The position numbers and the translations under genes are program-made. A stretch of DNA of 64,000 nt, taken from assembly GCA_018262795.1 (NCBI GenBank), contig JADFDM010000002.1, positions 62,001 to 126,000 on the forward strand. The letters are read 5' to 3'. The stretch comes from Sphingobacteriales bacterium. GTDB taxonomy: Bacteria; Bacteroidota; Bacteroidia; Chitinophagales; LD1. Numbering within the stretch: position 1 is the stretch's first letter; every line of letters begins with the position of its first letter. The notes below the pieces were generated by a model. The model made no database searches, was not told where the DNA came from, and worked only from the letters and a program-made list of their open reading frames with translations. This document shows, one piece after another, positions 33,405 through 59,648 of this stretch.

Positions 33405-33544
33405 TGGAAACCCTTCAACTTCCTCCTCTCTTTTCTGTTACCTCCATCAGAGACTCTGCCAATAAACATTGTTGCGATAAAACGAAAAAATGCTGTAAGA
33501 GCTACCGCGATGGGAAACGCTGCAAGAAATGTCCGAAGCGCTAA
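33404..33544 (+). CDS. 46-residue Cys-rich, Lys-rich small protein
   Basis: A short gene whose ATG overlaps the TAA of the TonB receptor (TAATG), implying translational coupling. The first 22 residues are METLQLPPLFSVTS-rich and neutral. The second half is Cys- and Lys/Arg-rich, with C23 C24, C30 C31 and C40-K-K-C43 and the C-terminal KRCKKCPKR. Six Cys in 21 residues suggest metal or Fe-S binding, or disulfide structure. No signal peptide is present, so it should be cytoplasmic unless exported by an unknown route. I do not recognise a named family. Its position in a metal-uptake operon supports a metal-buffering or sensor role by inference only. Confidence 0.7.
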   Translation: METLQLPPLFSVTSIRDSANKHCCDKTKKCCKSYRDGKRCKKCPKR

Positions 33545-33647
33545 GCGATTTCATTTAGGCTATCCACACCGGCAAATTTTATTGCTTCTCTCTAAACGGA
33601 TATCAGTATATTCAATAGTGAATAAAGAAATTATCAGCAGAAAAGTA

Positions 33648-35834
33648 ATGCGAAAGTTAAGCCTGTTCTGTTTCATTCTTCTGCAACTGTGCAGTGCAAT
33701 AGCGCAGAACTGGACTTGGGCAGAAACTGCCGGAGGGATTTTGCCCGATGAAGCAAATGGTTGTGCTATTGACCGAAACGGCAATAGGTATATGAGCGGT
33801 TTTTTCTTCAGTAGTTCTATTGATTTCGGACATGGCAACTCTATTAGCAATGGAGGTATTTGCGATGGCTTTATTGTAAAATACGATGCTGGGGGAAACG
33901 CGGTATGGGCATCGAAAGTAAAAGGCACCGGTGAAGATAAAGCCACTAAATGTGCAGTGGATGATTCCGGTAATGTAATCATCACCGGCTACTTCGACAG
34001 CCCTTCTATTCAATTTGGCGGAAACAATGCCAACAAGGTTTCCAATTATGACGGCAGTGGCAATACTTTCGACTGCTTCATTGCAAAATATAGCGCTGTG
34101 GGAACTCCTCTTTGGTTTCATGCTATTGGCGAAACCGATGATGATGGCGGGAGCGGTGTAGCTACAGATAGCAGCGGGAATATTTTTCTCACTGGATGGT
34201 TCAGAGCAACCTCCATCACTTTGGGCAGTTTTACTTTGTATAACCGAGGTACCGTTGGAACATCGGATATGTTTGTGGTGAAATATAATCCCAGCGGCCA
34301 AGTGTTATGGGCAAGAAATGCCGGCAGCACCGATGATGATAAAGGAAACGGATGCGCAGTGGATCGTTTCGGCAATGTGATAGTGACCGGCTATTCTAAA
34401 GGCGATTCCATTCACTTTGATTCCAATGCTTTTGCGAATCACGGTGGTAAAGATGCATTTGTGGCCAAGTATAATCCGAATGGTTTATTGTTGGAAGCCG
34501 CTTCCTTTGGTGGCGCATCGGGAGAGGAAGCCTTTGCTTGCTCTGCCGATGCCAACGGTAATATTTTTGTAGCGGGCAATTTTTCAGATGCTGCGTTTAT
34601 GTTTGACACAGTCGCCTTTACCAATACAGGAAGTAGCTCTGCTGCTTTTCTTGTTAAGCTCAATCCTTCGTTGGTTCCTCTTTGGGCAATATGCGCCAGT
34701 AGCAATGCAAACGATGAGGCCAGAGGATGCGCAACAGATAGTTATGGCAACACCGTGATTACCGGTGTATTTACCGGCTCTTCTATTTCTTTCGGAAACA
34801 CCGTGCTGAATAATAATGGTGGAGAAGAAATTTTTTTGGTAAAATACAATCCGCAAGGGCAACAGTTCTGGGCAAAGAAGGTGGGGAAAAGCAAAGATGA
34901 CGGATCGAATGATTGCGCGGTAGGTGTTAGTGGGCAAGTAGTGGTGGCCGGTTATTACAACAGTTCTACACTTACTTTCGGAAACATTGATCTCGATAAC
35001 TCTTATGTGGGAATTTCTACCTCCGATGTTTTTATAGCGAGCACCTGCCTCACAGAAAAAAGTAATGATACCCAAACAGCCTGCAATTCTTTTACTTGGA
35101 TAGATGGCCACACTTATACTTCCAATAATAACATGGCTACCTTCAGTCTCCCTGCCGGTGCAACAAATGGCTGTGATAGCGTAGTCACTCTCAATCTCAC
35201 TATTCTGAGTCCTGCTGTAGGTACTGACACGGTAACTGCTTGCGACTTCTACACATGGATAGATGGAATCACCTACGATTCCAACAATTATGCTGCTACT
35301 TATCATATAATTGGGGGGGCGGCTAACACTTGCGACTCCATAGTAACACTTCATCTAACTATTGATACTGTTGATAAGGGAGTTACGGTGGCGGGTCAAC
35401 TCCTTACCGCCCAAGCAGTAAATGTTGCTTACCGTTGGTTAGATTGTGATAATGGATTTGCTGCATTGCTCAGTGATACTTTGCAAACTTTTATTGCATC
35501 CGCTAATGGGCATTATGCGGTGGAAATAAGAAGAAATAACTGTATTGATACTTCTGCTTGTGTGACTGTTAACTCAGTGGGAATTGTTTCGCCCCGAGTA
35601 GTCGAAGGCATAAAGGTTTATCCCAACCCAAATAAAGGGATCGTGTATTTCAGCTTAGGTTCCTTGCAGAATGTATCTATCCGCGTAAGCAATGTAAATG
35701 GACAAGTAGTTTACCAAAAAGAAAATGTTCAGGCAGCAGAATTTGAGGTTCTATTAAAAGTAGCTTCGGGAATTTATTTTGCGGAAGTAAGGACCGAAGC
35801 CGGAGAGCAACGATTCAAATTAGTAGTGCAGTAA
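33648..35834 (+). CDS. T9SS cargo protein with SBBP beta-propeller repeats
   Basis: A 728-residue exported protein. The signal peptide is MRKLSLFCFILLQLCSAIAQ. About nine SBBP-type repeats (residues 25-470) each show a version of CAVDSSGNVIITGYF and DAFVAKYNPxGxxLWA, building one or more beta-propellers. Two copies of a Bacteroidota module (SFTWIDGxTYxSNN ... GCDSIVTLNLTI) follow at about 475-580. The last 75 residues are a T9SS type A sorting domain (IKVYPNPNKGIVYFS to ASGIYFAEV). The upstream in-frame start at 33510 overlaps the Cys-rich gene and would bury the signal peptide, so the ATG at 33648 is chosen. No enzymatic motif is seen. Confidence 0.85.
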   Translation: MRKLSLFCFILLQLCSAIAQNWTWAETAGGILPDEANGCAIDRNGNRYMSGFFFSSSIDFGHGNSISNGGICDGFIVKYDAGGNAVWASKVKGTGEDKATKCAVDDSGNVIITGYFDSPSIQFGGNNANKVSNYDGSGNTFDCFIAKYSAVGTPLWFHAIGETDDDGGSGVATDSSGNIFLTGWFRATSITLGSFTLYNRGTVGTSDMFVVKYNPSGQVLWARNAGSTDDDKGNGCAVDRFGNVIVTGYSKGDSIHFDSNAFANHGGKDAFVAKYNPNGLLLEAASFGGASGEEAFACSADANGNIFVAGNFSDAAFMFDTVAFTNTGSSSAAFLVKLNPSLVPLWAICASSNANDEARGCATDSYGNTVITGVFTGSSISFGNTVLNNNGGEEIFLVKYNPQGQQFWAKKVGKSKDDGSNDCAVGVSGQVVVAGYYNSSTLTFGNIDLDNSYVGISTSDVFIASTCLTEKSNDTQTACNSFTWIDGHTYTSNNNMATFSLPAGATNGCDSVVTLNLTILSPAVGTDTVTACDFYTWIDGITYDSNNYAATYHIIGGAANTCDSIVTLHLTIDTVDKGVTVAGQLLTAQAVNVAYRWLDCDNGFAALLSDTLQTFIASANGHYAVEIRRNNCIDTSACVTVNSVGIVSPRVVEGIKVYPNPNKGIVYFSLGSLQNVSIRVSNVNGQVVYQKENVQAAEFEVLLKVASGIYFAEVRTEAGEQRFKLVVQ

Positions 35835-38931: not shown

Positions 38932-39981
38932 TTAATTGCCCCCCCCTCTTTCCAACAACATAAAGCTGTGTTGCTCTCCGTGATAGTTATTGTAAACCAA
39001 CACGCGATTCAGTCCGTTTCTATCTCCAATATACTTTACTGCATGTGCCGGAATGCTTTGAGTTTGCAAGAAGTGACAACCCAGCCAAAGAGCAAGAGCC
39101 GATGCGGTTTGAAACTCGCCCGTTAGATGTTTAAAGCGGGCAATGGTAGTATTGGGGCCAATTACCTTTTCGCAAGCAGCGTAGTATTTAAAGAATCGCT
39201 GATCGCCATTCTCGCCCGAGAGAAACAAGTCAATAGGTTCTGTATCGGAAAGGTGCTGTTGCATAAATTGAGACAGTTGTGCAGCTATCGCTTTCGGTTC
39301 CAGCACGTTCAGCAGTTGTATGGCTCGCAACTTGGCTATGGCTTCATCTTTTTTGTGGTTCACTATAAACATGGCAGCGCCTTCGCCCGGCAATGAACCG
39401 GGAGTTTCTGTTTGATATAAATCAAGATTAGACACCTCCTCCGTTTTATACCAACCTGCCATTGCCTCCATGCGGTAGTTGCGCACCGATATTTCATCTA
39501 CCCCGCCAATCAAATAAGAATGTTCGGGGTTTTCGTTGAGCCGCATGATAGCGTCTAACATCACATTCTCAAATGCCAACCCTCGGTGCACGTGAGTGGC
39601 GTTGTAGCCGGTGTTCTTCGTAATCATTCCCAGCAAACCGGCAATAGCGTTAAAGGTGCTCTGCACAAAATTGGTAGGTGTTAAGCGACCCTCTTGGTAG
39701 TCGAGAATCTGATTCAGGAAAGTAATGCTATCCTCAATGCCGCTGTTAGCAGTGCCGATGATGATGCCGTCTGTCTGGTTATGCTCCAACAACTGCATAC
39801 CTGTGCCCACGCCCATGCGCAAGGCGCGCCCCATTCTGCGCAACTGCCCGATGGGGATGTTGCTGTACTTCGGTTCAACGGCTAATAGCTGATTATTGTC
39901 GGAGCGATTCAAATTTTCCAAGTCCACCTCGTGAAAGGTGGGTTGATGTGATATGCAGGAAGTTTGATGAATGTAGAACAT
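38932..39981 (-). CDS. Chain-length-factor-like ketosynthase (inactive partner)
   Basis: A 349-residue thiolase-fold protein related to beta-ketoacyl-ACP synthases. At the active-site nucleophile the sequence reads FVQSTFNAIAG, where the partner KAS has TACSSSANAL; the Cys is replaced by Gln, the hallmark of chain-length factors. The two catalytic His segments of KAS (THGTGT and KSNIGH) are also lost. It is likely to form a heterodimer with the upstream KAS, six bases away, and set product length. It is the last gene of the eight-gene cluster. It is shorter than full-length KAS by about 45 residues, mostly in the N-terminal half. Confidence 0.82.
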   Translation of the reverse strand: MFYIHQTSCISHQPTFHEVDLENLNRSDNNQLLAVEPKYSNIPIGQLRRMGRALRMGVGTGMQLLEHNQTDGIIIGTANSGIEDSITFLNQILDYQEGRLTPTNFVQSTFNAIAGLLGMITKNTGYNATHVHRGLAFENVMLDAIMRLNENPEHSYLIGGVDEISVRNYRMEAMAGWYKTEEVSNLDLYQTETPGSLPGEGAAMFIVNHKKDEAIAKLRAIQLLNVLEPKAIAAQLSQFMQQHLSDTEPIDLFLSGENGDQRFFKYYAACEKVIGPNTTIARFKHLTGEFQTASALALWLGCHFLQTQSIPAHAVKYIGDRNGLNRVLVYNNYHGEQHSFMLLERGGGN

Positions 39982-39987
39982 ATTCTT

Positions 39988-41175
39988 TTACACTTTAGAA
40001 AACACCAGCGAACTGCAATTGCCTCCAAATCCGAAAGAGTTGCTCATCACATGATGGATGGTTTTCTTCTCGTATTGAGGAACGGGATACAAGCCGGTGG
40101 TTTCAATAGGGTGGGAGAAATGAAGGCTTGGATACACCTCCTGATGAATCAGATTTAAAAGGCAGAAAGCTGCTTCAATTCCGCCTGCTGCCCCGAGGGT
40201 GTGACCAATGTTGGATTTAGTAGAAGCAAAAGCCGGTGGTGTTTGAAATAAACGCTGCATGGCTATGCTTTCCTTTTCGTCATTGTTCTCAGTGCCCGTT
40301 CCGTGAGTGTTGATGAAGTCAATTTGATTTGGTTGAAGGCCGGCTACTTCTAAAGCCTTCTTCATAGCGAGATAAGGACCTTCTCCATTATCTGAAATCG
40401 AAGAAGGATGGAAGGCATCGTTGGTGTTGGCCCATCCGCTCAGTTCGGCATATATCTTTTTACCCTTAACCTCTTCTTCTTTTTCTAACACCAGAAAAGC
40501 GGATCCTTCTCCGAGATTCAATCCGGAACGTTCGGCATCAAAAGGGCGGCAAGGAGCGGAGGACAGAATATTCAGTGAGTTAAATCCATTGATAGTAAAC
40601 TTAGCGAGGCTATCTACCCCACCGGCAATCACTCTTTTGGCAAAACCGTTTTGAATTAAACGGGCTCCGTACATCAACGCATTTGCGGAAGAAGAGCAAG
40701 CGGTGTTGAAGGTGTCGGTAATTCCTTGTATGCCGTATCGTTTTTGAATGTAAATACTAACCGAGCCAAGATCGTAAGAGTTCAGATAAGCTGAACCCAC
40801 CTTGTTGTGATTGGCATCGTGGTAAAGTTCATCAGAAATACACATGCCGCCCACAGTTGTGCCGCTGATAAAGCCAGTGTCGAAGGATTGAATTTCTTCG
40901 GCTGATAAACCGCTATCAGTGATGGCTTGCTCGAAAGCATGTAGCGCCAACAGTGTAGTTCGGGTCACCCCCGGCTCGCTTACGTTGAGTTGATCTTTGA
41001 AATTCTGATTGGTTGTTTTTATTTCTCCAAAGGGGAGTAAAGTGGCGTAGCGGGAATCAAATATTTCAATAGAAGAGAGTGCACACAAACCATCTTTCAA
41101 TGCTTCGCGGTTTTGGCGAAGAGTGTTTCCCAGCGGAGTAATAATGCCGACACCCGTCACTACAATTTTGCTCAT
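39988..41175 (-). CDS. Beta-ketoacyl-ACP synthase, KAS II/FabF type
   Basis: A 395-residue condensing enzyme that extends an acyl chain on ACP by decarboxylative Claisen condensation. The nucleophile is C160 in NTACSSSANAL. The catalytic His residues are in NTHGTGTENND and in KSNIGHTLGAAGG, so all three active residues are present. Its start overlaps the ACP stop by four bases (ATGA) and the inactive partner gene follows six bases after its stop, the classical KAS-CLF arrangement of type II polyketide and aryl-polyene systems. The primary FabF of fatty acid synthesis would be expected beside fabD/fabG/acpP, which are absent, so a specialised role is favoured. Confidence 0.92.
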   Translation of the reverse strand: MSKIVVTGVGIITPLGNTLRQNREALKDGLCALSSIEIFDSRYATLLPFGEIKTTNQNFKDQLNVSEPGVTRTTLLALHAFEQAITDSGLSAEEIQSFDTGFISGTTVGGMCISDELYHDANHNKVGSAYLNSYDLGSVSIYIQKRYGIQGITDTFNTACSSSANALMYGARLIQNGFAKRVIAGGVDSLAKFTINGFNSLNILSSAPCRPFDAERSGLNLGEGSAFLVLEKEEEVKGKKIYAELSGWANTNDAFHPSSISDNGEGPYLAMKKALEVAGLQPNQIDFINTHGTGTENNDEKESIAMQRLFQTPPAFASTKSNIGHTLGAAGGIEAAFCLLNLIHQEVYPSLHFSHPIETTGLYPVPQYEKKTIHHVMSNSFGFGGNCSSLVFSKV

Positions 41176-41447
41176 GCCTCGTTCTGCTTCGCTCGTCCTT
41201 GTTCAATAAACTCCATCATGCTGTTCACGTCTGTTAGTATTCTTCTTCCCTCTTTTGGGTTTTCAATTTTTAGGCCGTACTCTCTTTCGAGCATTACTAC
41301 CAGTTCAATAGAGTCAATAGAATCGAGCCCAAGTCCTTCGCGAAACATGGGCATATCATCTTTAATATCATCGGGAGTTACCTGTAGTAAATTCAAGTAC
41401 CGGATGATGTGTTCTTTCAGTTTGAGTTTTTCTGCCTCTTTATCCAT
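41172..41447 (-). CDS. Acyl carrier protein of the cluster
   Basis: A 91-residue ACP. The phosphopantetheine attachment Ser is S43 in GLDSIDSIEL, followed by the usual helix III and an acidic surface. It carries the growing acyl chain between the ketosynthases and the BtrH-like transferase. An in-frame upstream ATG would extend it by 52 residues into the permease gene with unlikely composition; the ATG at 41447 gives MDKEAEKLKLKEHIIRYL, a normal ACP helix I. It lies 11 bases after the permease stop and overlaps the KAS start. It is divergent enough from housekeeping AcpP to suggest specialisation. Confidence 0.93.
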   Translation of the reverse strand: MDKEAEKLKLKEHIIRYLNLLQVTPDDIKDDMPMFREGLGLDSIDSIELVVMLEREYGLKIENPKEGRRILTDVNSMMEFIEQGRAKQNEA

Positions 41448-41458
41448 TTCCAATAGTA

Positions 41459-42745
41459 TTAAATTAAGTGTTGTCTTTTCAATCTTATGAGCGAAATTAT
41501 TTGGAGGGCTAAAATAATTATTACAAGTGGCAGCAAACTGTAGAGAACATCTTTTAGGTGCCCTCCTTCCAGAAATAGGGTGTAGTAGGCTTCGAGGCAC
41601 CAATGCAGTGGGGATATTTTCATCAACAACCGAAGTGATTCAGGCATGGCAAAGGCCGGAACAATGATTCCTCCAATAGCGGCTAAAATAACTACCGACA
41701 CGGCTCCAAAGCCGATGGCTTGCTCCATAGTTTTTGCAAATACTCCCACAATGATTCCGTAACTCACCGCACACCATCCGCACACTAACGATACCACTAT
41801 TAAGCCTATCCAATCGGAGGGCAAGTTTAATCGGGGCAGACCTATTAACGGGAATAAAAAGATACCCAGCGAGAATATAACTACGACTTGCGCAAGAGTC
41901 ACTCCGATGTATGTGATTTGCTTTGCCAGCAGCACTAAGGTGTAATTAGTCGGTAAGGTTTTAAGGCGCACAAAGCTGCCGCTCAGTTTTTCCTTCACCA
42001 CATTTGTACTCAGCGAAACCACAATGAAGAACATGGCGAAGATGGTCCATGCCGGTACGTTGTGTTGCGTGGTATTGGGAATCACGATGCTGCCGTTGCG
42101 GGCAACGGGTATTTGGCGAATAGCCGAGCGATTATTTAGGATAGATTGCTCTAAGGAGTCAGAAAGTTTTGCATTGTTCAGCGCTTGATATAAGGCTTGC
42201 AATACCTCGCGGTTTTCAGTGAACTGCTGCGCGCTTTGCAAGGCTCCTTGCACGGAATAGCGAAAGGACTCTTGTAATACAGGATTGTAAAACATAGTGA
42301 CCGGAGGCACCTCACCGGTGGCCTTGCTGCTATCACTTTTAGCCGCCTCTATCCCCAACTCATCCAATGCTTTGCCTGCCACCGATTGCGCTTTGTGTTG
42401 CACGGCCTGTGAAAAACCATTGGGAATCACCACGGCTACCATGACATCTTTCTTTTGCATGGCAGCGCCCAACTGCTTATCGTTGAGTGTTGAATCTTCG
42501 GGGAGTACATCGAACATGCCGATTTTGCGCAAGGCGACTACTAATTGTTGGCTGCCTTCGCCTCCATCGCGGTTGCATATCAGCAGTGGTATTTTGTTAT
42601 CGTTCACCAACTGAAAGGTGCTGTTTTGAATGCTTGCAATCACCACTACTAACAATACCGGCATGGCAAACATCACCGCCAATCCGGCTTTGTCGCGGAT
42701 AAGAATGCGCGCATCTTTCAATATGGCTGTCCAGAGTTTAAACAT
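41459..42745 (-). CDS. ABC-2 type transporter permease
   Basis: A 428-residue permease with the layout of the ABC-2 family: one N-terminal helix (about 22-38, AGLAVMFAMPVLLVVVIA), a large extracytoplasmic region (about 45-225), then five helices near the C-terminus (about 230-425). Members export lipids, polyketides or drugs. It pairs with the ATPase encoded just upstream (stop and start overlap as TAATG) and sits between the BtrH-like transferase and the ACP, so export of the cluster product is the natural reading. The substrate is inferred from context only. Confidence 0.9.
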   Translation of the reverse strand: MFKLWTAILKDARILIRDKAGLAVMFAMPVLLVVVIASIQNSTFQLVNDNKIPLLICNRDGGEGSQQLVVALRKIGMFDVLPEDSTLNDKQLGAAMQKKDVMVAVVIPNGFSQAVQHKAQSVAGKALDELGIEAAKSDSSKATGEVPPVTMFYNPVLQESFRYSVQGALQSAQQFTENREVLQALYQALNNAKLSDSLEQSILNNRSAIRQIPVARNGSIVIPNTTQHNVPAWTIFAMFFIVVSLSTNVVKEKLSGSFVRLKTLPTNYTLVLLAKQITYIGVTLAQVVVIFSLGIFLFPLIGLPRLNLPSDWIGLIVVSLVCGWCAVSYGIIVGVFAKTMEQAIGFGAVSVVILAAIGGIIVPAFAMPESLRLLMKISPLHWCLEAYYTLFLEGGHLKDVLYSLLPLVIIILALQIISLIRLKRQHLI

Positions 42746-43491
42746 TAGGAGTCGCGATACGATTTGCCGGTCAGTTTTAAAAATAATCCTTCCAGCCCGC
42801 CCTGTGGATGAGAGGTGAGCAGCGCATTCAAATCATTGTGTACAATTAATTTTCCGGCATCCATCAGTGCTACCTTCGTGCAAAGGTTCTCGGCTTCACT
42901 CATCAGGTGCGAAGTGTAAACCAAAGTAGTGCCGGTTTTATTTAATTCTTTCAAATATTCTACAATGGCATGGCGGGTTTGCACATCCACCCCGGTGGTG
43001 GGTTCATCTAAGAAAAGCAGCGATGGTTTATGAATCACTCCGATAGCTAAGTTTACTCTTCCTTTCATTCCACCCGAAAATTTTGACACTGCTTTATCGC
43101 GAACGGAAGTCAAGCCCAACACTTCGAGTAACTCATCCGTGCGTTGCTTTATTTCCTGCTTGTTTAACCCGGCCCAGGCTCCGAAAAACTCCAAATTCTC
43201 CACCGGGCTTAACTCTTGATAGAAAGAATAGAACTGAGGCACGAAACCAAACATTCGCTTGACTTCCTTCTCGTCTGTGCGAATGTCTTTGCCCATCAAA
43301 TCTATTTTTCCTTTATCGGCTTTCAACACACCGGTCATTAAGTTGATGAGTGTGGTTTTACCCGCACCATTTGGACCTAATAATCCAAAGCGCTCTCCTT
43401 TAGCAATCTCCAGATTAAAATCATCGAAGATTACTCCCGTGTTTTCGGCATATCGAAAGTGAAGATGTTGTATGTGAAGTGCCAGTGACAT
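42745..43491 (-). CDS. ABC transporter ATP-binding protein
   Basis: A 248-residue nucleotide-binding protein that powers the ABC-2 permease. All motifs are intact: Walker A GPNGAGKTT, Q-loop in FVPQFYSFY, signature SGGMKGRVN, Walker B LLFLDEPTTGVD and switch His in YTSHLMSEAE. It belongs to the DrrA/NodI-like group linked with export of lipids and polyketides. Its stop overlaps the permease ATG by one base (TAATG). It follows the BtrH-like gene by 37 bases. Confidence 0.94.
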   Translation of the reverse strand: MSLALHIQHLHFRYAENTGVIFDDFNLEIAKGERFGLLGPNGAGKTTLINLMTGVLKADKGKIDLMGKDIRTDEKEVKRMFGFVPQFYSFYQELSPVENLEFFGAWAGLNKQEIKQRTDELLEVLGLTSVRDKAVSKFSGGMKGRVNLAIGVIHKPSLLFLDEPTTGVDVQTRHAIVEYLKELNKTGTTLVYTSHLMSEAENLCTKVALMDAGKLIVHNDLNALLTSHPQGGLEGLFLKLTGKSYRDS

Positions 43492-43528
43492 GGTGTAACT
43501 AAAAATTTATAGAAGGAAGTTGAAGTGC

Positions 43529-44539
43529 TTACCACTTAATTTTTAAAAGTTCTCTGAATGCAATCTGCTCCTTCTCGGCAATTTCCAAAAGATAGTTTCC
43601 CATGGTATCAAATTCTTTTTGTCCGCTCAGTCGTCCTTTATAAATGCCTGCGGCCTGCACAGCCGAGTTTCTCCACATGTCGCCAATAGCGGTAAACTCT
43701 TTTGAAACTTCTAATAAGGTTTCATTCGGAAGATAGCGATAGGCCTGTTGTAAAAATGCAGCATATACGAAACGAAATCCGGCACCACCGGTACCTATTT
43801 CTTCCTGCATACGAACCAATTGAGCCAAATTGGTGCGCGCTCTGCGCTCGCCAACTTCGCCCGGCCATTGTTTTATTTTTTTTGCCACATACTTAATCCC
43901 GTTTGTGCCAATGATAGGCACCGGAGTTTCGGCCATAAACCACGCGGCATGTTTTATTCCCTTTTTAATCGCTTTCTTTAGCTGTTCATCACTAACTTGC
44001 TTGTGTTCTTTTGGGAAATAAATTTGTCCGTTAGGAGCTAATGCTCCTTTGGTAAAACGGGCTTTCTCTAAGTCGGCAGCACTGATGGTGGTGGCCGTTT
44101 CCATGATGGGGTCGCTGACCAAGTAGGTGTCGTTTTCTTTGCCATACACCACCAGATTATGCGCATTAAAATGAAAGCGATATTCCACCGGAAAGTAAGG
44201 AAGATAGTACACGCCAACCTGACAACCGGCAGGCTGCCCGTTCTGTAAACATTCATCTAAAAATTGTTGTGCTTTTTCTTTTGAGCGAAAGGTCTTCCGC
44301 TCTACCGAAATATCTAAAGCCTTACAAGTTCGCTTAAAAATGGTGCCCGGCATGGAGCGAAAAGAAATAGCCGGGCCATTGCTTATTTTAAGATAAGGGA
44401 TGTGTATGAAAAAGATACCGGCACCAATACCGAAAGCCAACGGCTCTGTCATTTGATGAACGCCTGCATGTTGCAGTAAATTGGTGGCTACTCCGTTTTC
44501 GCAATGCGCTGCCTGAATATGTTTGAATTCAACTTTCAT
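43529..44539 (-). CDS. BtrH-like acyltransferase (BtrH N-terminal + DUF4872)
   Basis: A 336-residue protein. The N-terminal part begins KVEFKHIQAAHCENGVATNLL and contains EPLAFGIGAGIFF and CQVGVYYLPYFPVEYRFHFNAHNLVVYG, the pattern of the BtrH N-terminal domain. The C-terminal half (about 165-336) fits DUF4872. BtrH in butirosin biosynthesis transfers an acyl group from an ACP to an amino sugar, and the fold recalls papain-like cysteine enzymes: Cys (AAHCENG) and His (FNAHN) are both present. Placed with an ACP and ketosynthases, it likely transfers the ACP-bound chain to an unknown acceptor. The start at 44539 is preferred over ATGs 24 bases upstream. Confidence 0.8.
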   Translation of the reverse strand: MKVEFKHIQAAHCENGVATNLLQHAGVHQMTEPLAFGIGAGIFFIHIPYLKISNGPAISFRSMPGTIFKRTCKALDISVERKTFRSKEKAQQFLDECLQNGQPAGCQVGVYYLPYFPVEYRFHFNAHNLVVYGKENDTYLVSDPIMETATTISAADLEKARFTKGALAPNGQIYFPKEHKQVSDEQLKKAIKKGIKHAAWFMAETPVPIIGTNGIKYVAKKIKQWPGEVGERRARTNLAQLVRMQEEIGTGGAGFRFVYAAFLQQAYRYLPNETLLEVSKEFTAIGDMWRNSAVQAAGIYKGRLSGQKEFDTMGNYLLEIAEKEQIAFRELLKIKW

Positions 44540-44559
44540 GGGTCTTCTGCACCTGCTCA

Positions 44560-44988
44560 TCAACGAAAAGGAGAAGCGTCAACTTTTATAGGTGGAGAAA
44601 ACCGAATTAACTCATCGGTGCTGATATTGAATACTTCAGCGTACTTGTTCAGCCTCTTATTCGATAGCTTTTTAAAGATGTGGGGGTTCAGATGTCGCTT
44701 GATAGTCCATTGCCAAAAACCGGTATAAGCTGAAAGTGTAGCCAAATCCATCATGTTCAATTCCATATAATAAAGTACGGGGCTGGCTTCGCCCTTTTTT
44801 ACTTTTTGTCGAGCGCTTTCAATATTCTGTTGTACCTCTTCCCAAGTGATGCCCAAGGCATCAGCCTTTACTTGCCATCCTCTGCTCAATGCTGTTTCAT
44901 ATTCTCCTTTTTCATTGACTGCGTAGCATACCTCTTTAGTAAACTTATCTAATGGACTGGGATCCTGAGGTATTTCGTCTTTTTTCAT
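44560..44988 (-). CDS. Small protein with an XRE-like helix-turn-helix pattern
   Basis: A 142-residue protein that I do not recognise by name. The C-terminal half (about 80-135), with DLATLSAYTGFWQWTIKRHL and then KRLNKYAEVFNISTDELIRF, has the spacing of an XRE/Cro helix-turn-helix domain, including the closing 'N-I-S-T-D-E-L' turn. The N-terminal half is helical and charged. It may be a regulator of the cluster or a non-DNA-binding adaptor using the same fold. It lies 50 bases after the StlD/DarB-like gene and 20 bases before the BtrH-like gene. No homologue was identified, so the assignment is tentative. Confidence 0.6.
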   Translation of the reverse strand: MKKDEIPQDPSPLDKFTKEVCYAVNEKGEYETALSRGWQVKADALGITWEEVQQNIESARQKVKKGEASPVLYYMELNMMDLATLSAYTGFWQWTIKRHLNPHIFKKLSNKRLNKYAEVFNISTDELIRFSPPIKVDASPFR

Positions 44989-45038
44989 GCTGTATTAGGC
45001 AAAAGTATAAGCGCTCAAAAAATTTTAAAAAGGAATTA

Positions 45039-46187
45039 TCAGCAAACGGTTAACAGGGCATAAACGTAAGAGAATCGAGCACTTTCCGGAACCATCAGCA
45101 AAAGCTTTTGTCCTTTTTGCAGTTTACGACTTTCCATTAACTCATCCACCATCAGATACACGGAGCCTGCTCCCACATTCCCCACATAGCTCAGGTTGAT
45201 ACACCATTTTTCTGCGGGTATGCCCATCCCGTTCTCTTCTAATTTAGCAGCGATTTTTTTTCGGAAAAACTCACTTGAAATGTGTGGGATAAAGTAGTCC
45301 ACTTCATTCACGCTAAACTTCTTTTTATCCAATATTTTTTTTAGTGTTTCATACCCTAATTGTACAATGTGCTTATCTAAAAGTTTCACATCTTGCTTCA
45401 TGCTCAAGGTGCTATTCATCGCTATTTCGTGCGAGGTGAAATCCATATAGCTCTTCAAGGTGCCATCGGGTTGTTTTTCGCTGGCCATATACATACAAGT
45501 TTCCACCTGATGAGCATACGAGGCACTTTCTATCCATTCTATTCTAAGGCTAACTCCTTCTGTGTTGGGTTTATTACTCACCAGAAACGCACCGGCACCG
45601 TCTGAAAGCATCCAGCGAAGGAAGTCCTTATCAAAAGAAAGAATAGGGTTTTCCTGTAACATCGCCAACTGCTTCGCTTCATCTTCAAACGTATCGGCAG
45701 AAAGCACGCGCGATACCCTTTCTGAACCGGTGACTACTGCTTTTTGAGCGCCTCCACTTTTTATTGACAGATAAGCATATTTCAGGGCATACATCCCCGC
45801 ACAGCAATTTGCAGCAGGTGAAATTACTTCAATGGCTTCCGTATCGGGCAACCATCCGTGAATCATCACGGCATGGGAAGGCATCATTTGGTCAGGGGAG
45901 GAAGTGCCACAGGAAAGTAAGTCCACTTCTTTTATTTCATTAGGGTCAGCTTCAAAAAGATTTTTGATGGCGAGTGCCGCCATTTGTGCATTGGTGTGAG
46001 TGGGGATCCCACCTTTTTTAAGCGCATAAAATCTTCGCTTAATGCCGTTGTTGCGAAGCACAATAGCTTTCGACTTGCTTTTTCTTCCATTTATCAAACC
46101 CATGTATTCTTCCATCTCTTCGTTAGAGACAGGTTGGTTAGGGAAAAAATGGGCTGTTCGTGTTATGTAAACCTCACTCAATGACAT
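45039..46187 (-). CDS. StlD/DarB-like 3-oxoacyl-ACP synthase III
   Basis: A 382-residue KAS III-fold enzyme. The N-terminus (FPNQPVSNEEMEEYMGLINGR and LRNNGIKRRFYAL) matches the StlD/DarB group that joins two acyl units in dialkylresorcinol biosynthesis. The nucleophile is C129 (ANCCAGM), the His is in FIPHISSEFF and the Asn in YVGNVGAGS, so the KAS III triad is complete. It is the first gene of the cluster and probably starts or joins acyl chains. No DarA-like aromatase lies in the window, so a resorcinol product is not assured. A -7 element lies 58 bases upstream of its ATG. Confidence 0.88.
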   Translation of the reverse strand: MSLSEVYITRTAHFFPNQPVSNEEMEEYMGLINGRKSKSKAIVLRNNGIKRRFYALKKGGIPTHTNAQMAALAIKNLFEADPNEIKEVDLLSCGTSSPDQMMPSHAVMIHGWLPDTEAIEVISPAANCCAGMYALKYAYLSIKSGGAQKAVVTGSERVSRVLSADTFEDEAKQLAMLQENPILSFDKDFLRWMLSDGAGAFLVSNKPNTEGVSLRIEWIESASYAHQVETCMYMASEKQPDGTLKSYMDFTSHEIAMNSTLSMKQDVKLLDKHIVQLGYETLKKILDKKKFSVNEVDYFIPHISSEFFRKKIAAKLEENGMGIPAEKWCINLSYVGNVGAGSVYLMVDELMESRKLQKGQKLLLMVPESARFSYVYALLTVC

Positions 46188-46605
46188 TCTGCTTTTAATT
46201 ATGCGACCCCTATGCTTACTCTTTTTTCAAAATACGAGGCGCGGCAAATATAACATGCCACCGCAAAAAGTTCTGAAAATTATTGCTAATGCTAAGATAG
46301 TTTCGTTCAGTTGGTCGCCATCTGTTGGTGTAATGTAGTGATATCATGAATTATTATCTGGTCTAAGAGGTTGTTTGGAGATAATCAAAAGTGGAGAGGA
46401 GAACGCTTCATTGTGAGCGTTTTTATATAATTGCATATAGGAGAATTGCGAATTTCAAGACTATTCTTAACAAGCAAGCTACTTCGCTTTGCTCTGTATA
46501 TTTTTTTGTGGAATACTGACAAATGATTCATCCATCATTTCTGTAAGGAAAACGAAAAAATCGTTTTTTTTTAAGACCGTTAAAGTTTTAAGTTTACTAC
46601 CGCTG
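46188..46605. other. Gene-free interval between divergent genes
   Basis: 418 bases between the ketosynthase cluster and the caspase-TPR gene. It contains the cluster promoter element at 46245-46252. TAAGTTTA at 46589-46596 is a near-match to the -7 consensus close to the caspase gene start, without a -33 element. Confidence 0.5.
46245..46252 (-). promoter_or_regulatory. -7 element of the ketosynthase cluster
   Basis: TATATTTG on the minus strand exactly matches TAnnTTTG, placing transcription start about 50 bases before the first gene of the cluster. No TTG is found at the expected -33 position. Confidence 0.5.
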
Positions 46606-49600
46606 ATGAAACGCCTATACTTTATAATTTTTGCACTTGGTTTACTTGCCACAGCAATGGCACAAGCTGATGGACAGCGCGGGGCAGTAGTCACCAACAC
46701 AACTCCCGCCCCCACTGGAAAGGTATATGCGTTAGTAGTCGGCATTTCGAAATACAGCCAAGTGGTGGAGTTGAAATATGCCAACCGGGATGCCGATGCC
46801 TTTGTGGATTTTCTGGAGTCGAAAGCAGGGGGAAGTGTGCCGCCTGACAACATTAAAAAGTACACCGATCAGGATGCTACCCGCGCCAATATCTTCGATG
46901 AACTGTATTATCTCAAGTCTATTATTCAACCAGGCGACTTACTCTATTTTTATTTTGCGGGACATGGGGATATAGAGCAAGACTTGTCGGAAGGGGAAGA
47001 TGCCTTACTGCTGCTGGCAAAATCATTACCAAAAAACTATCTGAGCGGAAGCGAATTTATTGAGTTGGATAAACTGCGATCCTACATCAGCAACTTTGCT
47101 AAGAAGGGGGTAAATGTGGTGTTTATTGCCGATGCCTGCCACAGTGGCGCGATGTTGAGCGGAGGTGCCAGCGGAAGAGAAAGAACTCTTCATGCATTGG
47201 AAGAAACATGGGGAAATGAAATTAAGTTCCTTTCCTGTCAGCCCAATGAAGTGAGTGAGGAAAATACAAAGTGGGGAGGTGGTCGCGGCATCTTTTCATA
47301 CACTTTAGAAGAAGGGTTAAAAGGATTAGCCGATAAGAACGGAGATAGTGTAGTAACGGTAGGAGAGATTAAACGATACCTCGAATCGGAAGTAGCGAGG
47401 CAAACAGATGATTCGCAGAACCCGGACGTAAGAGGCGATCCTAAACGAGCCATTGCCAAAGTGGATATGGATGTGTTGCTGGCTTTAAGAAGTGAAAAGC
47501 AGAAAGCGCTGCCACAAATGATAGCCATGAACACCGGGCGATCAGCAGAGGATAATTTATTAGCTAAAGCCTCTCCGGAGGTGAAGGAAATATATCATCA
47601 ATTTACCACTGCCATTGATAAAGGAGATTTACTGCATCCGGAAGGAAGTTCAGCAATGGATTTATTTAATCAACTGAGCAAATTGGAGGCTCCTGCTGAA
47701 CTGAAGCGAGTGGCAAAACGCAATTTTGTTTCTTCTCTTCAGGATGGAGCGATGTTATTTATCCAAAATCAGTTAGGAGGAAAAAAGGATGTGGACGACT
47801 TTAACGAGAAGGTGGTGAATGAACAGTTAGCGAAGTGGAATTCAGCGATCGAAAATTTAGGGGCAGCGATTCATATACTGGGAGAAGATCACTACTTAAC
47901 TCCATCGTACAAGGCTCGCAAATTATATCTTGAGGCGTATGTATTGTATTTTAAAATCAGCAGTTATACCAGAGAATACACCACAGCCAATCGCGATTCA
48001 TGTATTGAGAAATTAGAACAGGCGGTGCAATTAGAAGAGAATGCCAGCTATGCTTATTATTTATTGGGAGAGGTTTACTCTTATGTGGGCAGAGAGCAAA
48101 AGGCGATACTCAATTATGAGAAATATTTGAAACTAAATCCGAATGACGGATATGCTTTTATCAATTTAGCTTCGCTGGCGCGCAGAGAGGGCAACCTGAA
48201 AAGAGCAGACAGTTTGGTAGCCGTTGCGGTGAAAGTAGGCTCTACTCTTAAAGACGAATTTACCGATTATGTAGCCGGTTATTATTACAACTGGGAAGAC
48301 TATGACAGTGCGAAAGTGTATTACAAAAAGGCTATCGAATATAATCCTAAACTGATGAGCTCGTATCTGAACCTCGGAGTAATTACGAAGATGGAGAAAG
48401 ATTACACCAATGCCGAAAAGTATTACTTGAAAGCATTAGAGATTGACTCTACTTATGCCTGGGCCTATAATAATTTAGCGAATGTGTATTCCGTACTTAA
48501 GAAGCCTGAAAAAGCGATTGAATATTACGCGAAGGCTATCCGCTACGATTCTTCCTATCATGTGGCCATCACTAATCTTGCTATACAGTATGAAAATATG
48601 AAGGAATATGACAAGGCTAATCGTTTGTACCACCTTTCCAAATCCATCGAACCTTATTATTCTAGCACCTACTACGGCATCGGAAATATTCATTATAACC
48701 GGGCTAATTACGACTCTGCTATTCTGTATTATTATTACTGCACTCGCTTAGATACCGGAGATGCGAAAGCCTATTACTGGTTGGGTAAATCATACGAAAT
48801 GAAAAAGGATGTAGAGGATGCTTTGTATTACTACCAAGAGGCCACCGCGCACGATACCGCTTATGCTGCTGCTTGGAACGCTATCGGGAATGTGTATTAC
48901 AATCAGAAGGAGTATGATAAAGCAATATTGTATTATAGCATGGCGGTGGTCATAGATACTGCAGAGGCTGCTTATTGGACAAATTTGGGAAAGGCCTATC
49001 AGTATTCGGATAGCGTGGATCTTGCTCTAAGGATTTTCACCAACAAGGCACTGCGAATAGATTCTACCTATTCGACTCCTTATATTCAAATAGGGAATAT
49101 CTTTTACGACAGCAGTGAATATAAATTAGCAGCCGGGTATTATCTAAAGGCCTTGCATTTCGACAGCACCTCTGTTACCGCACTTTATAATTTGGGTTTG
49201 ATATGCGATAACCTACACCAATACGATACTTCTATTTATTACTATCGGAAAGTTTTGAAATTAGATTCGACTTATTTAAATGCTTACAGTTCCTTAGCCG
49301 AAGCTTATAATAAGCTTCAACAAAATGACAGCAGCAAGTATTATTATCTGCTCTCTTTAAAGTATGATACAACTTTTAGCCGCGATGTTTACTACAATCT
49401 GGGCAACATCTGTTATTTGCAAAAGGATTCAGCGGATGCGGTGAAGTATTTTAAAAAGGTGTTGGAGCGCACGGAGGATGCTATCACCAGTTATATGCTG
49501 GGTACGGTATATCAGGAGGGGGGTAATTTTGAGGAGGCGCGTAAATGGTATCTGCCCATTGAAAATGATAAAGTATTCAGACCCTATGTGCTTTCTCAAT

Positions 49601-50097
49601 ACGGCTATATGGAAGAATTGGATAGCAACTATGAGAAATCGCTTGATTATTACAAGCAGTCATTAAGCCTAGATTCGGCATCTGTTTATTCATGGCTGCG
49701 GATTGGTTATTTGCTCGGTTATTATTTGAAGAACCCACAGGAAGGCAAACTTTACATTGATGTCGCCTTACTTTTAGACACTGCGAATAAAAACCAGAGC
49801 TATACCTACATGGCCAGCAATTACTTTTTGATGGGCGACACTGCCACTTCCTTACAATGGTATTTCAAAGCAATTGAAAAAAATCCGAACGACTTGCAGG
49901 CTGTCTATAATATTGGATGTATTTACTCCCTTACAGGGAATCCAACAGAAGCCTTAAAGTATCTGGAGAAGAGTTTTATGCAGGGGTACGATAACTTCGA
50001 TCATATAGCCATAGATACCGATCTCGACAATATCCGAAATCTGAAGGAGTTCAAAGCGCTGGTGAGCAAATACAAAGCGAAGAAGAAGAAAGGATAA
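46606..50097 (+). CDS. Exported caspase-like protease with long TPR array
   Basis: An 1163-residue protein. A Sec signal peptide (MKRLYFIIFALGLLATAMAQA) is followed by a peptidase C14 (caspase/orthocaspase) domain at about 38-290. The dyad is H120 in YFAGHGDIEQ and C178 in IADACHSGAM. A linker of about 150 residues precedes at least 15 TPR-like 34-residue repeats (about 470-1140), unusually rich in paired Tyr (YYxKAL, YYYYC). Such proteins occur in Bacteroidota and cyanobacteria, but roles are mostly unknown. An in-frame start at 46489 would bury the signal peptide and is rejected. No T9SS domain is present, so it should be periplasmic. It is monocistronic. Confidence 0.85.
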   Translation: MKRLYFIIFALGLLATAMAQADGQRGAVVTNTTPAPTGKVYALVVGISKYSQVVELKYANRDADAFVDFLESKAGGSVPPDNIKKYTDQDATRANIFDELYYLKSIIQPGDLLYFYFAGHGDIEQDLSEGEDALLLLAKSLPKNYLSGSEFIELDKLRSYISNFAKKGVNVVFIADACHSGAMLSGGASGRERTLHALEETWGNEIKFLSCQPNEVSEENTKWGGGRGIFSYTLEEGLKGLADKNGDSVVTVGEIKRYLESEVARQTDDSQNPDVRGDPKRAIAKVDMDVLLALRSEKQKALPQMIAMNTGRSAEDNLLAKASPEVKEIYHQFTTAIDKGDLLHPEGSSAMDLFNQLSKLEAPAELKRVAKRNFVSSLQDGAMLFIQNQLGGKKDVDDFNEKVVNEQLAKWNSAIENLGAAIHILGEDHYLTPSYKARKLYLEAYVLYFKISSYTREYTTANRDSCIEKLEQAVQLEENASYAYYLLGEVYSYVGREQKAILNYEKYLKLNPNDGYAFINLASLARREGNLKRADSLVAVAVKVGSTLKDEFTDYVAGYYYNWEDYDSAKVYYKKAIEYNPKLMSSYLNLGVITKMEKDYTNAEKYYLKALEIDSTYAWAYNNLANVYSVLKKPEKAIEYYAKAIRYDSSYHVAITNLAIQYENMKEYDKANRLYHLSKSIEPYYSSTYYGIGNIHYNRANYDSAILYYYYCTRLDTGDAKAYYWLGKSYEMKKDVEDALYYYQEATAHDTAYAAAWNAIGNVYYNQKEYDKAILYYSMAVVIDTAEAAYWTNLGKAYQYSDSVDLALRIFTNKALRIDSTYSTPYIQIGNIFYDSSEYKLAAGYYLKALHFDSTSVTALYNLGLICDNLHQYDTSIYYYRKVLKLDSTYLNAYSSLAEAYNKLQQNDSSKYYYLLSLKYDTTFSRDVYYNLGNICYLQKDSADAVKYFKKVLERTEDAITSYMLGTVYQEGGNFEEARKWYLPIENDKVFRPYVLSQYGYMEELDSNYEKSLDYYKQSLSLDSASVYSWLRIGYLLGYYLKNPQEGKLYIDVALLLDTANKNQSYTYMASNYFLMGDTATSLQWYFKAIEKNPNDLQAVYNIGCIYSLTGNPTEALKYLEKSFMQGYDNFDHIAIDTDLDNIRNLKEFKALVSKYKAKKKKG

Positions 50098-55456: not shown

Positions 55457-58400
55457 CTATTGCACTTTCATTACCTTCGCATTCCATACGCCTTGTGTAG
55501 TTTGGATACGCAGTTCGTAGGCTTCACTCGCTAACTGATCTAACGAAAGTGAATATACCTGCGGCATATTTTTCAGATGAATATCTCGAACTAATTTACC
55601 CGTTAGATCATACAATTGAATCTGCACAGTTCCGCTGATACTTCCCACTGACTGAATATACACTACATCTGAAGCGGGGTTAGGGAACACTTTGATACTA
55701 CTATTTGCCAGATGATTGCTGATCGAAGTGTACACAAAGTTGAAGCAGCCCGAAGTGTCGGAACAACTACCTTGAGTAAGAATCACGGTATAAGAGCCGG
55801 AGGAGGTCGGTGTAAATGTTTGACCGGTAGCACCTGCGACAACTGTGTTAGTGGAGCAATTATACCATTGATACGAAGCTGCTGAATCATTGGCCGCAAA
55901 GGTGGTTCCATTGAAAGTAACAGAAGTATCAATGGAAGAATTCACGGTTACCATCTGTACGCATGAAGCGGTGTTGCCGTAATGGTCGGTAGCTGTCCAA
56001 GTAACTATCGTAGTTCCAACTGGGAACACCGAAGGGGCATCGCTCGTCACTGTGTCTATTCCGCAATTGTCCAAAGCAGTAGGTGTGCTAAGGTTTACAT
56101 TACTGGCAGAACACTGTCCGGCATCTGCCTCGGTAACTACATCTAAAGGACAGAGAATGCTTGGCGCAATGGTATCCAATACCGTTACCGTAGTGCTGCA
56201 AGAAGAAGAATTACCACTTGAATCGGTGACGGTTAATATGACTGTATTTGCCCCGGTGTTAGCACAAGTGAAGGCAGTTTGAGAAGCAGACAGAGAAGCA
56301 ATGCCACAATTATCAGCACTACCTCCATCAATAGCAGCAGCAGCGATGGAAGCATTCCCGGTCGCATCTAAATACACAGTTGCACTTTGGCAAACAGCTG
56401 TTGGCGCAATGGTATCCAATACCGTTACCGTAGTGCTGCAAGAAGAAGAATTACCGCTTGAATCGGTGACGGTTAATATGACTGTATTTGCCCCGGTGTT
56501 AGCACAAGTGAAGGCAGTTTGAGAAGCAGACAGAGAAGCTATGCCACAATTATCAGCACTACCTCCATCAATAGCAGCAACAGCGATGGAAGCATTCCCG
56601 GTCGCATCTAAATACACAGTTGCACTTTGGCAAACAGCTGTTGGCGCAATGGTATCCAATACCGTTACCAATTGGGTGCAGGTAGCCGTGTTGCCGTGAA
56701 TATCTGTGGCGATCCAAGTGACGGTAGTAATACCTTTTGCAAAAACCATTGGCGCATTGTTAGTGACTGTATCCACTCCACAATTATCACTCACTGATGG
56801 AGTTCCCAAGACTACTCCACTCGCTGAGCACAGACCTGAATCTGTACTAACCGTTATATCACCCGGGCAGGTAATATGCGGTGGCTGATTATCTGTTACC
56901 GTTACATTTTGAGTGCAAGTAGCCGTATTCCCGTTTACATCGGTGGCAGTCCATGTTACGGTAGTAATGCCTACCGGGAATGTAGCCGGGGCATCACTGG
57001 TGATGCTATCTATTCCACAGGCATCGGTTGCAGTAGCAGTAATTGGGCCTATAGAAAAATTGGATATTACCGTGGTTGCGGCTCCGAAGCTATTGTCAGT
57101 TGAATTAATGCTGAAGCCAAATAGATCACCGGGTTGGACACTAACAGTAGCACTGCCATTTCCCGAAATGCCGGAGTTAAAGAGGGGAGTAAATACTCCA
57201 TTGAGAATATAACCGAACGGATCGTAAAGCGCATCCTCATCCACAGTACTGTAGCTCCAGTTAAAGGTAATCACTCCACCACAAGTAGGGCTTATCTGAT
57301 AGTTCGTGTAAGAAAAGTCAGCCGAACCGTTATCACTTCCTGTTAAGGTAACCGAAGCCGGAGCAGTCGAAGTGTTTACACTTCCGGTCCCTCCATTAGT
57401 GTTTGTCAAATTCCAATTAGCCGGGGAGTAGTTTCCTGCAAAGTTGCTCTGTGGGCTGCAAGAAGGTGGTGCGGTTGCTGTGCATAATCCTGAATCCGCT
57501 AGTAAAGTTATATCAGCCGGGCAGGTAATAAGAGGTGGCTGATTATCTGTTACCGTAACATTTTGGGTGCAGGTAGCCGTATTCCCGTTTACATCGGTAG
57601 CAGTCCATGTTACGGTAGTAATGCCTACCGGGAATGTAGCCGGGGCATTGTTGGTAATAGTATCTATCCCGCAGCTGGAGGTAGTGGAAACAGAGTCTAT
57701 ATAAAAATTGGATATTGCTACGGAAGGGGCACCGCCTACATTATCCAATGTGTAAACACTAAAACCAAATACATCACCAGGTTGAACCGAAACGGTAGCA
57801 CTGCCATTTCCCACAATGCCGTAACTGAAAAGAGGAGTAAATACTCCATTGAGAATATAACCGAACGGATCCCAACTTGCATCCTCATCCACTGTGCTGT
57901 AGCTCCAGTTAAAGGTAATCACTCCACCGCAAGCGGGACTTATTTGATAATTCGTGTACGAATTAGCGGATGAACCGTTATTGCTTCCGGTTAAGGTAAC
58001 CGAAGCAGGAGCAGCCGAAGAGTTTACACTTCCGGTTCCTCCGTTAGTATTTACCAAAGTCCAATTAGCAGGGGCGTAGTTTCCCGCAAAGTTACTTTGT
58101 GGACTACAAGAAGGTGGTGCCGTTGCTGTGCATAATCCTGAGTCGGTCTGTAGGGTTAACGCAGCGGGGCAATTAATAGTTAAAGTGACGGAAGCTTGGC
58201 TTTCAAAAGCTCCAATATCTTTTCTCCCAGCATATACAGATTCCCCTCGTTGGTCGGCACTCACATCTGCGGGATCGGCTGCATTGTAAGCCGGGCTACA
58301 AGGAGCTATGGCCATGGTTAGAGTTGAGCCACCATTATCAGATAGTGTATCTAACATGGGGTTAATAGGGTTAGCGGTGCTGCCTAATAAGTTGCCATTA

Positions 58401-59332: not shown

Positions 59333-59648
59333 TAAATTTAATTTTCTCGATGTCCTAAAAAGAGGAGTCAAAAATAAATCTTTGGCTTTATTTTTCCACT
59401 GCATCAATATTTTATTTATTCGTATAAACATTTTTTAACCGAGTTTAAGCCTTGAAATATACCGTAAGTGAATTTTTAATTAGATGGGTAATTCTTCTTC
59501 TATAGTTTCTTCCCAGCGCTCACTTTAGAAACCCTTTATTTGTTGATAGTTCATGGTCAAATACCCTTGTAAGCGGGCAACTTATTTATTTGATGGTCGT
59601 GCAGGTATGCTAAAGGCGGGGTATCACTTATCACCGAATTGCAGCCTT

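Follow-up and report, generated by a model that had tools for sequence, protein, structure and literature searches.

In flexirubin pigments, a polyene half and a resorcinol half are linked by an ester. Enzymes of the DarA and DarB families make 2,5-dialkylresorcinols from two fatty-acid-derived chains, and the aryl polyene is derived from tyrosine by FlxA, reductases, and the products of polyene ketosynthase (KS), acyl carrier protein (ACP), and dehydratase genes. We analyzed a window of 64,000 nucleotides from a Sphingobacteriales bacterium (assembly GCA_018262795.1, contig JADFDM010000002.1, positions 62,001 to 126,000), in which a compact set of eight minus-strand genes (window positions 38932-46187) is, with high probability, the dar operon of a flexirubin-type pigment pathway; this judgment covers the identity of the operon, and the step assigned to DarH is graded separately below. 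The operon both makes and handles the resorcinol half of the orange pigment and is an ordinary instance of a known system, unusual only by its unlinked darA, a feature shared with some relatives.

A described counterpart is the dar cluster of Azoarcus BH72 (azo0283-0293, arcuflavin), which Table 1 of PMC3949708 gives in the order darA, darB, darD (conserved hypothetical), darE (BtrH-like), darF (ATP-binding cassette [ABC] ATPase), darG, darH, darI (permease), darC (ACP), darJ (ketosynthase), and darK (hypothetical). The window has the same order as that table, minus darA and an insert: in Azoarcus, darA adjoins darB, and two genes encoding a prevent-host-death protein (darG) and a PilT-domain protein (darH) are inserted. 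The Azoarcus letters thus differ from those of NCBIfam, which we follow here, Azoarcus “darH” being the PilT-domain gene, and darK is listed in the same table merely as hypothetical, whereas the gene here is chain-length-factor (CLF)-like. As far as the account in PMC3992019 goes, Chitinophaga pinensis (flxA-flxY, with darB/darA at Cpin_6850-6851) and Flavobacterium johnsoniae share with this genome DarA/DarB, the FlxA tyrosine ammonia-lyase (TAL), reductases, polyene KS, thioesterase, and (here putative) dehydratase genes, and LolA; in C. pinensis the dialkylresorcinol genes likewise lie apart from the polyene cluster. They differ in that the pathway here extends over four contigs, and the likeness is drawn from the published descriptions. 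PMC9606717 reports that Dyadobacter HH091 has a dar operon accompanied by ABC transporters and by flx genes.

All eight genes are open reading frames (ORFs) on the minus strand, with the coordinates and families that a sequence-only reading had given them, and Pfam and NCBIfam agree on a StlD/DarB-type β-ketoacyl-ACP synthase III (KAS III), a helix-turn-helix (HTH)-like protein, a BtrH_N plus DUF4872 protein, an ABC ATPase, an ABC-2 permease, an ACP, a KAS II-type ketosynthase, and a KAS-like partner. NCBIfam names three of them over cut-off, as DarB, “flexirubin biosynthesis protein DarG”, and “BtrH-related acyltransferase DarH”; the other five match general KS, ACP, and ABC families below cut-off, or nothing. 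DarB (45039..46187), a StlD/DarB-family KAS III of the kind that condenses and cyclizes two acyl chains, scores 612 bits with NF053539 (resorcinol_DarB, cut-off 550), and its best match in the PDB is the ketosynthase StlD (5gk0, E 1.2e-102); no difference from the StlD/DarB ketosynthases was found. Its motifs NCCAG, PHISS, and GNVGAGS presumably mark the Cys, His, and Asn sites. The small protein DarG (44560..44988) scores 188.3 bits with NF053545 (flexirubin_DarG, cut-off 170) and also matches NF053536 (DarG_fam), the HTH_26 match being weak (16.9 bits, below the cut-off of 22). DarH (43529..44539 from an ATG, with an in-frame TTG at 44563 as a possible start) scores 461.7 bits with NF053550 (DarH_acyl, cut-off 300) and carries the Pfam domains BtrH_N and DUF4872.

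The remaining genes follow the Azoarcus order. The ABC exporter ATPase (42745..43491, PF00005), the ABC-2 permease (41459..42745, PF12698), and the dedicated ACP (41172..41447, PF00550, with a GLDS motif in its translation) are the positional counterparts of Azoarcus darF, darI, and darC, respectively. They are followed by an active-looking ketosynthase (39988..41175, PF00109/PF02801) and a CLF-like partner (38932..39981, PF13723), counterparts of darJ and darK. The sequence-only reading had called this pair one active and one inactive synthase, and the alignment bears this out: the Cys motif (TACSS) and the two His motifs (NTHGTGT and SNIGHT) are intact in the ketosynthase, and the partner has none of the three. 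The widest intergenic gap is 50 bases, as had been claimed. Two of the three proposed start/stop overlaps are certain (4 bases between KS and ACP, 1 base between permease and ATPase), but the third, between darH and darG, requires TTG 44563 as the start of darH; with ATG 44539 the two genes are 20 bases apart, and the homologue of this ATG starts the longest frame in several relatives (e.g. L047, L048, and L050; L and G numbers denote loci and genomes, C numbers contigs).

The sequence-only reading had taken these genes as a minimal, self-sufficient system that would build an unknown acyl product on the ACP, pass it to an amino acceptor by BtrH-like transfer, and export it. The tight eight-gene unit speaks for such a system, as does the description of BtrH itself, in the portion of PMC10318531 concerned, as an ACP:aminoglycoside acyltransferase. 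The reported lack of ketoreductase, dehydratase, DarA, ammonia-lyase, and phosphopantetheinyl transferase (PPTase) genes nearby also holds among the ten genes scanned around the operon, but the rest of the genome (3.48 Mb in 19 contigs, 98.4% complete) has partners on contigs C14, C17, and C6. A single DarA-type gene lies on C14 (G000:C14:50475-51365) and shares 62% identity with a gene that, in a relative, lies close to darB; downstream of it are genes for a flavin adenine dinucleotide (FAD)-dependent oxidoreductase and a DUF1702 protein, as at several loci of the same genus. On C17, the gene for the tyrosine ammonia-lyase FlxA (777.6 bits, cut-off 700) is directly followed by that for the reductase FlxB (381.5 bits, cut-off 340); the other aromatic lyase on that contig is a histidine ammonia-lyase. 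Contig C6 carries a polyene cluster with two ACPs, several KS, a CLF-like protein, a lipid-A-type acyltransferase, a thioesterase, and LolA2_flexi (196.3 bits, cut-off 125), together with a halogenase-like FAD enzyme, a polysaccharide deacetylase, and a glycosyltransferase whose gene adjoins a weakly FabZ-like one. The dehydratase is seen there only as that weak FabZ match (25.8 bits, cut-off 113). The flexirubin gene classes are thus spread over four contigs, with the dar operon on C12, darA on C14, the polyene cluster on C6, and flxA-flxB on C17. With three families named for dialkylresorcinol or flexirubin synthesis and partner genes elsewhere in the genome, a self-sufficient system appears very improbable, and the other possibility that the sequence-only reading had named, that the genes are one piece of a flexirubin cluster that has been split, is the correct one.

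We further quantified co-occurrence in 149 Bacteroidia genomes and 14 control genomes. DarH exceeded its cut-off in 27 of the 149, with no match in any control; in two genomes (G099 and G104) the DarH-like matches were weak or broken. A DarA profile, built from this genome's gene and seven relatives, whose own matches are therefore strong by construction, matched at E 1e-84 or better in exactly the same 27 genomes, a 28th match being weak (G104, 3e-4). DarB matches of at least 517 bits were present in all 27 genomes with DarH, compared with 499 bits in G131 and values near 400 in G070 and G090, there in frames longer than 600 amino acids; some weaker match occurred in 145 of the 149 genomes, which is what one would expect when the model describes a KAS III. 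Of the 27 genomes with DarH, 26 had a FlxA match of 685 bits or higher, versus 1 of the 122 others (G131), giving a Fisher p of 9e-27 for the table 26/1/1/121, uncorrected for relatedness, while some lyase match was found in 133 of the 149. That every DarH genome also carries strong DarA and DarB matches speaks against a self-sufficient unit of unknown product, which we reject on these co-occurrences (DarH-DarA-DarB-FlxA), the NCBIfam names, the Azoarcus order, and the DarA, FlxA, FlxB, and LolA2 genes in the genome.

Gene order was compared at the best 80 of 569 relatives' loci, obtained by profile search of named genomes and thus selected by similarity. Among these 80, we detected darG in 78, darB in 76, darA in 71, and a TAL gene in 19. 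For tests of the upstream side, at least 3.5 kb upstream of darH was required (72 of 80 loci kept, 8 dropped), and the limit on both flanks kept 62 and dropped 18; ACP, KS, and CLF genes were counted by tblastn at 1e-6, so that their counts are probably lower bounds. At 68 of the 72 loci, darB was the first or second gene detected upstream of darH. The order darB-darG-darH-ATPase-permease was found at 52 of the 62 loci and the full eight-gene order at 28. Six loci place the dar genes with other parts of the pathway: at L107, L111, L119, and L141 the operon stands after polyene KS, ACP, CLF, and LolA2 genes, and at L080 and L133 the dar genes occur with TAL and FlxB genes as well. The sequence-only reading had named the presence of its eight genes in a complete, characterized flexirubin or aryl-polyene cluster as what would refute it, and, on genome comparison, these loci do so. 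At five others (L105, L118, L122, L127, and L130), darG-darH, with or without darB, was detected with no further dar gene.

Several loci depart from this order. At L124 and L133, one of them labelled a Chitinophaga pinensis metagenome-assembled genome, the dar order is rearranged, with darG-darH ahead of darA-darB and a FabZ-like gene ahead of the ABC genes. Two small ORFs lie between darH and the ATPase gene at L044 (10455-11047, genome G008), by position like the Azoarcus insert, and a small ORF lies likewise at L041. The operon tail varies within the genus, six of its loci that were read past the dar permease (L036, L037, L038, L039, L040, and L042) having no ACP-KS-CLF there, unlike the window. 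Because of these six loci, DarB need not have ACP, KS, and CLF next door, which leaves some room for the view that the three, perhaps along with the ABC genes, work for the polyene half instead of resorcinol synthesis and do no more than share a transcript with darB-darG-darH. The full eight-gene order at 28 of the 62 loci and the same tail in Azoarcus count against that division of labor, to which we give roughly one chance in three and which is compatible with the operon being the dar operon.

A number of observations weigh against the flexirubin assignment. First, darA is off the operon here: darB lies ∼108 kb into C12 and darA ∼50 kb into C14, so the two are not neighbors, compared with darA directly beside darB at 61 of the 72 eligible loci (at the other 11 it is separated, reordered, or not detected). 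The DarA candidate itself is unmatched in Pfam and NCBIfam and has no solved relative by sequence; it is named from its position and co-occurrence. By curated cut-off, DarB is found in only 22 of the 149 genomes, and FlxA in 25, of which 24 are among the 27 with DarH; one genome (G112) has DarH but no FlxA-type lyase, another (G131) lacks both DarA and DarH but carries FlxA and a DarB-like gene, and FlxA exceeds its cut-off in 1 of the 14 controls. The genome has only one PPTase-family match, a 126-amino-acid frame on C17. Finally, one polyene KS on C6 contains an in-frame TAA (L009:15506-16726; G000:C6, about 33.5-34.7 kb).

Linkage of darA was variable among relatives. A DarH match was present in 22 of the 60 relatives searched. 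Within the genus, DarH occurs in 10 of 18 genomes and DarA in the same 10; in eight of these ten, no more than about 4 kb separates darA from darB, and the two genes run either in the same direction or divergently. The exceptions are the genome of the window and G008, whose darA and darB share a contig at a distance of about 37 kb. In three genomes of other genera (G018, G019, and G021), darA and darB are on different contigs. Adjacency of darA and darB is therefore usual, not defining.

The stop codon in the C6 ketosynthase may mark a real pseudogene, in which case pigment production in the strain would be affected, or may be an assembly error. It also bears on whether the polyene half is damaged and the strain makes a free dialkylresorcinol as antioxidant or signal, an outcome compatible with the identity of the operon and for which there is a precedent in HPR, a free dialkylresorcinol and the product of a Pseudomonas dar cluster (PMC6403133, in the section describing it). 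The FlxA, FlxB, and LolA2 genes, the further KS and ACP genes, and the FabZ-like, thioesterase, and acyltransferase genes are nevertheless still open frames, and the Pseudomonas cluster is described in that section with darA, darB, darC, and two regulators, a BtrH-like gene not being described (PMC6403133). We consider a free resorcinol as the end product unlikely. The absence of a BtrH-like gene from that description agrees with the idea that DarH joins polyene acid and resorcinol but is no proof of it.

For DarH, a sequence search found no solved relative. Its structure was predicted from 35 sequences (that of the window and 34 from the 80 relatives' loci) and compared with solved structures. 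The model has a mean predicted local distance difference test score (pLDDT) of 90.4, and each of the 35 aligned sequences, including that of the window, has Cys13, His127, and Asp143. A looser set of 11 includes one distant DarH homologue without the Asp. This gene (L046:9418-10398, on G018:C7; 29% identity) keeps the Cys and His and lacks the aligned Asp, with no other dar match within the fetched 12.8 kb around it.

Foldseek with the DarH model gave 19 matches at E ≤ 0.001, every one of them AziU2-U3, CtaG, or CcbD. VIA-align superposed the model on a CtaG variant (9qvl) with Z 24.8 over 296 residues at a root-mean-square deviation of 3.2, and its next tier consisted of papain-like enzymes, among them the peptidase domain of ComA (Z 14). 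No structure paper stood among the CtaG publications listed. The CtaG variants C11A, H128A, and D144N, read from the titles of the PDB entries, name residues in the same order and at nearly the same spacing as C13, H127, and D143 of DarH, a correspondence of order and spacing rather than of residue-by-residue superposition. The solved relatives of DarH form N-acyl bonds. DarH resembles these BtrH, CtaG, CcbD, and AziU3 acyl or peptidyl transferases in its BtrH_N domain, in a fold match over most of its length, and in the Cys-His-Asp set, and differs in sequence, CtaG, CcbD, and AziU3 being 12-17% identical to it. The model thus predicts a papain-fold Cys-His-Asp acyltransferase, in line with the placement of BtrH_N among papain-like enzymes near C39 and C70 in the passage of PMC10318531 that treats it.

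The acceptor would differ: BtrH-type enzymes use an amine, whereas that of DarH would presumably be a phenolic hydroxyl. We give about an even chance to the proposal that DarH joins the flexirubin halves, taking an ACP-borne aryl-polyene acyl group onto Cys13 and passing it to a phenolic hydroxyl of the dialkylresorcinol with formation of an O-ester. In the operon as a whole, the KS, CLF, and ACP may serve to load a chain onto the dedicated ACP or to lengthen it there; DarH may form the ester by this transfer, with the same even chance; and the ABC ATPase and permease may export the product. In the Chitinophaga study, the polyene-resorcinol ester step is tentatively given to the ligase-like FlxW (PMC3992019, in the part that discusses it), and among the literature matches listed, none was, by title or start of abstract, a study of the flexirubin ester-forming enzyme. 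For DarH together with dialkylresorcinol, the literature search gave one paper, that on Azoarcus.

Elsewhere in the window, a 1202-amino-acid ORF with a caspase-like Peptidase_C14 domain and many tetratricopeptide (TPR) repeats adjoins darB on the opposite strand (46489-50097), and four large proteins (9347-11818, 21764-24763, 33510-35834, and 55457-59431) carry a type IX secretion sorting tail (Por_Secre_tail).

As an instance, the operon carries little weight, DarH and DarA occurring together in 27 of the 149 Bacteroidia genomes and NCBIfam models already existing for DarB, DarG, DarH, FlxA, FlxB, and LolA2; it is new only as one more member of a known system, with darA unlinked. The case shows how part of a pathway scattered over a genome can, when only one window is read, pass for a new kind of minimal cluster; DarH, moreover, is a testable candidate for the ester-forming step of flexirubin synthesis.

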